From positions 1 through 42,137 of the forward strand of contig JAGXRL010000045.1 in the NCBI GenBank assembly GCA_018335915.1: a stretch of 42,137 nt of DNA. The letters run 5' to 3'. The stretch is from Candidatus Latescibacterota bacterium (GTDB lineage Bacteria > Hydrothermota > Tepidihabitantia > Tepidihabitantales > CAIPLT01). The first letter of the stretch is position 1, and every line of letters begins with the position of its first letter. Positions 8,190 through 32,359 of the stretch are shown here, piece by piece. The notes below the pieces were generated by a model. That model saw only the letters and a list, made by a program, of their open reading frames with translations, had not been told where the DNA came from and did no database searches. The translations under genes and the position numbers were made by a program.

Positions 8190-8221
8190 CGGGTGCGTCC
8201 TGGTTTTACAGGACGCACCCG
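8190..8221. repeat. perfect hairpin repeat, copy 1 (REP-like)
   Basis: A 13-bp perfect stem (CGGGTGCGTCCTG / CAGGACGCACCCG) encloses the 6-base loop GTTTTA. A relative with a compensatory stem change lies at 11531-11560 in the opposite orientation. On the minus strand it follows the structured RNA and is trailed by TTCTATTT, so it may act as a backup terminator, but the U-run is poor. The shared loop and stem suggest a dispersed palindromic repeat family. Confidence 0.8.
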
Positions 8222-8249
8222 CGATTAGTTCGCATATAAGACATTTATT

Positions 8250-8449: not shown

Positions 8450-8478
8450 ATTATAACAAATCTTGTTTTGGTTGTCAA
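8450..8478 (-). promoter_or_regulatory. consensus promoter of the small RNA
   Basis: The minus strand has exact TTGACA (8473-8478), a 17-base spacer and exact TATAAT (8450-8455). This is the strongest promoter by sequence in the window and it points at the structured RNA, not at a reading frame. The nearest minus-strand gene downstream (Mut7-C) has its own promoter. Confidence 0.85.
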
Positions 8479-8726
8479 CCCTGCGTTGTAAATCCGATGC
8501 TATATTTACTCTTCCAGTCTGGTCACAAATCTCCGTGTTTATTCTAACTCTGGTAGATGTTTGGAAAATCTTTAACATCAGACAGTCCGGTTCTTTCTGC
8601 CCGGTTCTTATCTGTCCTTCCTGTCATGTCTATATCAAAGATGTTATCACTCTTTATATTTCTGGATTTAATCAGAGAAACATTATTTTCTACATCAAAT
8701 CTAAATCTAAATAAAATTAGATTGTT
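8479..8726. other. intergenic stretch without a supported gene
   Basis: This stretch lies between the small RNA promoter and the dispersed repeat. An open minus-strand frame of 113 codons (8544-8885) runs through it and into the repeat, but it has no ribosome binding site and its upstream part consists of repeat sequence. The region could hold a decayed gene or upstream promoter sequence. No other structure was seen. Confidence 0.4.
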
Positions 8727-8893
8727 TATTACAGCATTTATAGCAAACAATATGACCATGCCTGATGGCGACCCTATGAGTCGCTGACCGGTTAAATGTG
8801 TGCCTGATTTTACCTGAGCGCGACATGGCAAACGGCTCATCTTGACCATGCCAGGATACGGCATCCCGGCGCTATTATTTAACACACAACTTT
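8727..8893 (-). repeat. dispersed MITE-like element, copy A (degenerate ends)
   Basis: About 167 bases on the minus strand match 31952-32121 on the plus strand, with the core (8752-8874) close to 78% identical by eye. In matching frames both copies encode a related peptide: PYPGMV near the start, SRLP in the middle and SPSGMV at the end. Several differences are synonymous. Conserved short inverted segments (TGAGC/GCTCA) also suggest RNA or DNA folding. The terminal inverted repeat clear in the other copy is eroded here. It lies between murJ's 3' end and the small RNA promoter. Confidence 0.75.
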
Positions 8894-31951: not shown

Positions 31952-32121
31952 ACCAAAGTTTACCTTTAATAATATTTAGAGCCGGCATACCGTATCCGGG
32001 TATGGTCATGATGAGCCGTTTACCGGGGTACGCTCAACCAAAACCAGGCATATGTTTAACCGATAAGCGGCTGACGAGGTCGCCATCAGGCATGGTCTGA
32101 TTATTTACTATAACTTTGGTA
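31952..32121 (+). repeat. dispersed MITE-like element, copy B, with 9-bp terminal inverted repeats
   Basis: The ends are ACCAAAGTT (31952-31960) and AACTTTGGT (32113-32121), a perfect inverted repeat. The core (31981-32100) matches 8752-8874 in the opposite orientation. A plus-strand frame encodes PYPGMV...SRLP...SPSGMV and stops at the 3' edge. The inner hairpin TGAGC/GCTCA is read on the minus strand. No transposase is present, so any movement would need enzymes in trans. Target duplication was not clear. Confidence 0.75.
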
Positions 32122-32359
32122 ACCGGCAGTCAAAACAGCTTTAGATGTAGGCCTGTTTATAAAAGAACAGTTTAACGATTTCCAGGTGAGGTTTGAAGTT
32201 TCGCCAATAAGCTTGTTAAAAAATCGGCATGACAATTGGCTCTTAATCCTGAAACTCTCGAACTCTTAAACTCTTGAGATTTCTTGGCAAAAAAATCTGC
32301 CCTGCACTTTAATTGCGATTTGATGTGACCGTATTTGGAAAATATTTTATTAAACACCA
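32122..32359. other. intergenic stretch between the repeat and tetR
   Basis: No gene is supported. It holds an AACTCTTAAACTCTT-type repeat (32240-32277) and AT-rich sequence leading to the tetR promoter. Confidence 0.5.

Follow-up and report, generated by a model that had tools for sequence, protein, structure and literature searches.

Two related stretches of the window (the whole 42,137-nt stretch of DNA that was analysed), here termed copy A and copy B, are most probably copies, old and diverged, of a dispersed repeat of a MITE- or ERIC-like kind that is non-coding, non-autonomous and limited to one bacterial family. The repeat occurs in multiple copies in the genomes of three genera of this family, is non-coding and intergenically placed; two or more of these genomes amplified it separately. 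It is a new MITE-like family of a known kind of small repeat, not filed under any named family. The two window stretches are members of a set that spread in three genera, and with this set a bacterial lineage that has received little study gains a small dispersed-repeat family.

Two diverged copies in the window

The likeness between positions 8727-8893 (minus strand) and 31952-32121 (plus strand), which had first drawn attention to these regions, was borne out together with the coordinates. Copy A (window 8738-8874, minus strand) and copy B (31977-32113, plus strand) align without gaps over 137 columns, 107 of which are identical (78.1%; E 7.75e-28 within the window), and a looser local alignment stretches the similarity to approximately 190 nt. 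The inverted segments TGAGC...GCTCA are found in both copies. The following features were delimited:

8750..8874, minus strand: head of copy A, from the first hairpin-like segment to just past the second; best own-genome match of covariance model R2 (100.2 bits, E 3e-21), 78% identity to copy B
8850..8870, minus strand: first hairpin-like segment of copy A, GCCGGGATGCCGTATCCTGGC; across 17 copies, 67% of cells are paired (model columns 5-25)
8844..8852 and 8754-8762, minus strand: first and second occurrence of the internal direct repeat GGCATGGTC of copy A, read from the sequence
8761..8791, minus strand: second hairpin-like segment of copy A, 31 nt, CCGGTCAGCG...CAGG; 88% of cells paired, mostly invariant pairs
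8577..8749, minus strand: A+T-rich tail of copy A, from blastn
31952..31960, plus strand: ACCAAAGTT, proposed left terminal repeat of copy B, within AAAGTTTACCTTT, a degenerate counterpart of the palindrome left of young copies
31977..32101, plus strand: head of copy B; model R2, 99.5 bits, E 5e-21
32060..32090, plus strand: second hairpin-like segment of copy B, 31 nt
32102..32149, plus strand: recognisable part of the tail of copy B, from blastn with the C140 copy
32112-32120: AACTTTGGT, partner of ACCAAAGTT in copy B, inside the element and not at its end

For copy A, blastn gave 72% identity to the C140 copy over 221 nt (window 8795-8577) and 68% identity to the C143 copy over 167 nt; for copy B it gave 73% identity to the C140 copy over 94 nt (window 32056-32149). 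The 9-bp terminal inverted repeats that the earlier note had ascribed to copy B are present as ACCAAAGTT and AACTTTGGT, but they are internal, and homology with another copy continues past 32120 to at least 32149. Copy A lacks these 9-bp inverted repeats.

Copy number and distribution

The own genome (G000) is a draft of 1.93 Mb in 159 contigs and is 90% complete. Searches of this genome with three copies, A and B among them, yielded further partial matches; a covariance model of seven copies (R1) gave 14 matches at E<=0.001, and a second model built from 17 copies, one of them from G003 (R2), identified 20 places at E<=2e-6. In G002 and G003, which belong to other genera of the same family, R2 found 19 and seven matches, respectively, at E<=0.5, the weaker matches of both models being less certain than the strong ones. 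One marginal match was found in G001 and none in G004. The copies in the relatives were reached by the covariance models only; a blastn search of 100 relatives with copy B returned, outside the own genome, only short matches at chance level. Apart from G000, G002 and G003, no match at E<=0.001 was found in the other 144 of 147 genomes of the phylum, under stricter filters with which weak matches can be lost. Together with the lineage-specific amplification and the intergenic location throughout, these counts uphold the earlier description of a dispersed, MITE-like element.

At the Rfam 15 gathering score, only 23S rRNA was recognised in the window and nothing exceeded the threshold in the loci of five further copies. 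An exact-pattern scan of genome contigs gave approximately 100 scattered matches in unrelated organisms, which were ascribed to chance, given 17 fixed bases in 257 Gb; the same kind of scan gave none in viral contigs. A literature search with general terms retrieved no description of the repeat, and the sequence does not belong to any named family known to us.

Structure of the repeat unit and its ends

The unit of approximately 330-430 nt comprises a head of 100-125 nt with two hairpin-like segments and, 3' of it, an A+T-rich tail of approximately 200-250 nt. The first segment opens the head (GCCGGGATGCCGTATCCTGGC in copy A; GGGCTAG...CTAGCCC in G002) and is separated from the second by a stretch of variable length. 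The second segment is the best conserved part of the family and measures 31 nt in all 18 own-genome copies listed, with 10 bases ending in GCG, 11 bases, and 10 bases starting with CGC. The motif after the first segment (GGCATGGTC in copy A) is repeated after the second.

Palindromes occur at both ends of some copies, of the TATCGAAGTTNGACTTCGATA type in the G000 copies C40 and C143 and as AGNAGGTCCGACCTGCT in the G002 copy L217. These short bracketing palindromes accompany the young own-genome copies and some G002 copies and are decayed or absent in most copies. They are also found alone or around other sequences, without the repeat element, and were thus rejected as an exclusive end signal; for the same reason they are only candidate ends, and the palindrome may be an independent repeat. 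At L277 (509-1077; G000:C137), two GAAGTTNGACTTC palindromes approximately 555 nt apart surround a cluster of other palindromic repeats and not the element studied here. The palindrome GGAAGTTCGACTTCC near position 915 of L279 (G000:C59) is located between a promoter-like TTGACA stretch, which it directly follows, and an ORF for a membrane protein of UPF0016-type appearance; it may represent an operator and not the end of a repeat. A perfect hairpin, GGGTGCGTCC-TGTAAAACCA-GGACGCACCC, is present at window positions 8190-8240, and similar hairpins recur near other copies (L059 and L062), which suggests a second family of palindromic repeats.

Age and history of the copies

Three G000 copies are young, with 88-94% identity over approximately 280-325 nt, and a fourth young copy is situated at a contig end; in G002, L209 and L211 are 96% identical over 221 nt. 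In a maximum-likelihood tree of 42 heads the genome label changes nine times, against 18.2 times in shuffles. The G000 and G002 copies mostly fall into groups of their own, those of G003 are scattered without a cluster of their own, and one well-supported clade crosses genomes, uniting the G000 copy L074 with the G003 copies L208 and L212. This combination of grouping by genome, one mixed clade and scattered G003 copies suggests that several lineages of the repeat were probably already present in the common ancestor and that separate multiplication within two or more of the genomes followed.

Placement relative to genes

No match falls inside a long ORF, while a few overlap spurious-looking ORFs of 102-143 aa. 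When ORFs of at least 100 aa are considered, which are mechanical calls and not curated genes, the upstream neighbour is co-oriented with the repeat in 27 of 40 cases (27 vs 13, P 0.04), and in 27 of 39 (27 vs 12, P 0.02) with ORFs of at least 130 aa. The downstream neighbour shows no orientation bias. Copy A begins 77 nt 3' of murJ and copy B 30 nt 3' of the stop codon of a GNAT acetyltransferase gene, both names coming from a reading of the translations. On the 3' side of copy A, a sigma-70-like promoter with perfect consensus (TTGACA-17-TATAAT with TG; window 8450-8478, minus strand) precedes a Mut7-C-like gene.

Folding and possible RNA function

The placement behind co-oriented genes also speaks for a multicopy family of structured RNAs, whose copies would be either small RNA genes or structures in the 3' UTR of the gene upstream, with a role in processing, stability or termination. 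The second hairpin-like segment, constant in length and with 88% of its cells paired, points in the same direction, as do the paired cells for the proposed structure over 43 copies (72% against 69% in shuffles, above 499 of 500 shuffles); the alignment in question (A5) had, however, been fitted to that structure. With 17 copies aligned without the structure the excess of paired cells over shuffles was not significant, and an unbiased, structure-free covariation scan recovered no nested, coherent helix. RNAalifold found three pairs in 22 copies, without compensation. Folding z-scores against dinucleotide shuffles average about -1 in 14 copies (best -2.3, worst +1.1), the predicted folds vary from copy to copy, and copies A and B share no intrinsic terminator. 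Hairpin-like segments do exist in individual copies, but a structure common to the copies did not emerge from these comparisons. The conserved folding unit proposed in the earlier note is thus weakly supported, and a structured RNA family is considered unlikely.

Slightly less likely again is a combination of both readings, a clade-specific, self-spreading 3'-UTR element in which a mobile repeat carries a folded RNA head acting on the transcript of the preceding gene. If true, the spread of the repeat would re-wire mRNA 3' ends across three genera.

Proposed mobility

Under the favoured reading, the copies of this non-coding repeat, which is not autonomous, would be produced by an enzyme that acts in trans on its ends. 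The bracketing palindromes of the young copies could serve as terminal inverted repeats of the element, and copies would persist at sites where they are nearly harmless, for the most part past the 3' end of a gene. Reading by eye the flanks of young G000 and G002 copies revealed no target-site duplication, although the precise boundaries of the element are not settled and duplications of this kind decay over time. No G002 copy with a long insert turned up in the search for an autonomous relative. Nor did an enzyme with matching ends, Y1 being the one transposase family tested.

REP/RAYT systems and elements derived from IS200/IS605 (PATEs) have hairpins at their ends and non-autonomous copies, and the present repeat resembles them in both respects. 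In the drafts of five genomes of the family, however, a single Y1 transposase (PF01797) gene was found, in G000 only. None was found in G002 or G003, although both carry the repeat, and the Y1 transposase was rejected as the mobiliser on this ground. The G000 gene is flanked by a different REP-like hairpin. This gene (L227, 1340-1940; G000:C27), of the REP-associated type, is located between inverted GTAGGCACGATTTTAATCGTGC hairpins and resembles a RAYT accompanied by a REP repeat of its own. Integron attC sites were also considered, on account of the position behind genes, but the ends appear to lack the paired core sites known from attC.

Segmental duplication of intergenic DNA along with neighbouring genes would disperse the repeat without any mobility of its own. 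A paralogous gene region lies downstream of both the C40 and the C82 copy (81% over 1062 nt), but most copies have unrelated neighbours and their similarity ends near the ends of the element, which makes this explanation very improbable for the family. Paralogous genes for secreted, repeat-like proteins (minus-strand ORFs) are located downstream of two young copies, L059 and L062, and suggest that some copies were duplicated along with a gene.

Comparison with known repeats

The repeat is short (<500 bp), dispersed and devoid of a transposase gene or conserved ORF, as is usual for MITEs. Prokaryotic MITEs such as Correia, QMITE2 of Coxiella and Chunjie are likewise <500 bp, non-coding, dispersed, intergenic and lineage-limited, with an A+T-rich part and with inverted repeats around the copies, here as candidates around the young ones. 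QMITE2 is mainly found in 3' untranslated regions (PMC10969869), and both it and the present repeat favour the 3' side of genes. Unlike in MITEs, neither a target-site duplication nor a parent insertion sequence was found here, and the candidate terminal repeats, each a palindrome in itself, have decayed or are absent in the majority of copies. The ERIC and RU repeats of enterobacteria are also imperfect palindromes with old, diverged, intergenic copies, the number of which varies between related taxa (PMC10969869, PMC2759123), and the present repeat is intergenic and multi-copy in three genera of one family. ERIC (RU-1), however, measures 127 bp and occurs in other lineages, whereas the unit described here has 330-430 nt and a separate tail. 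Repeats of this type break metagenome assemblies (several of the present copies are located where contigs end) and could change the 3' ends of mRNAs.

Coding potential

The palindromic elements of Rickettsia encode a conserved peptide and many are inserted in frame in genes (PMC10969869); the present repeat resembles them as a small palindromic dispersed repeat and differs on both counts. A protein-inserting or peptide-coding element had been proposed from the PYPGMV and SPSGMV motifs, which are indeed encoded in corresponding frames of both copies, and in copy A this frame stays open (113-aa ORF, 8544-8885), but in copy B a TGA directly follows SPSGMV. The approximately nine synonymous differences that had been counted were likewise recovered, as nine synonymous against 15 non-synonymous codon changes (P 0.03-0.04). 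This weak excess was discounted because it does not survive the choice of one frame among six, and the 30 differences between A and B are distributed 9/8/13 over the codon positions. Of the 42 rows that alignment A5 contains besides copy A, 39, including copy B, have the frame interrupted by at least one stop, while the three open rows (L067, L194 and L225) encode quite different peptides; indels of 11 and 22 nt, not multiples of three, separate copies. Because of these frame-broken copies, and with no copy inside a long ORF, the peptide reading is refuted for this repeat family and its probability is negligible. GMV occurs twice in the proposed peptide because the DNA contains the internal direct repeat GGCATGGTC, and a peptide that looks conserved between two copies can thus be an accident of the conservation of a DNA repeat.
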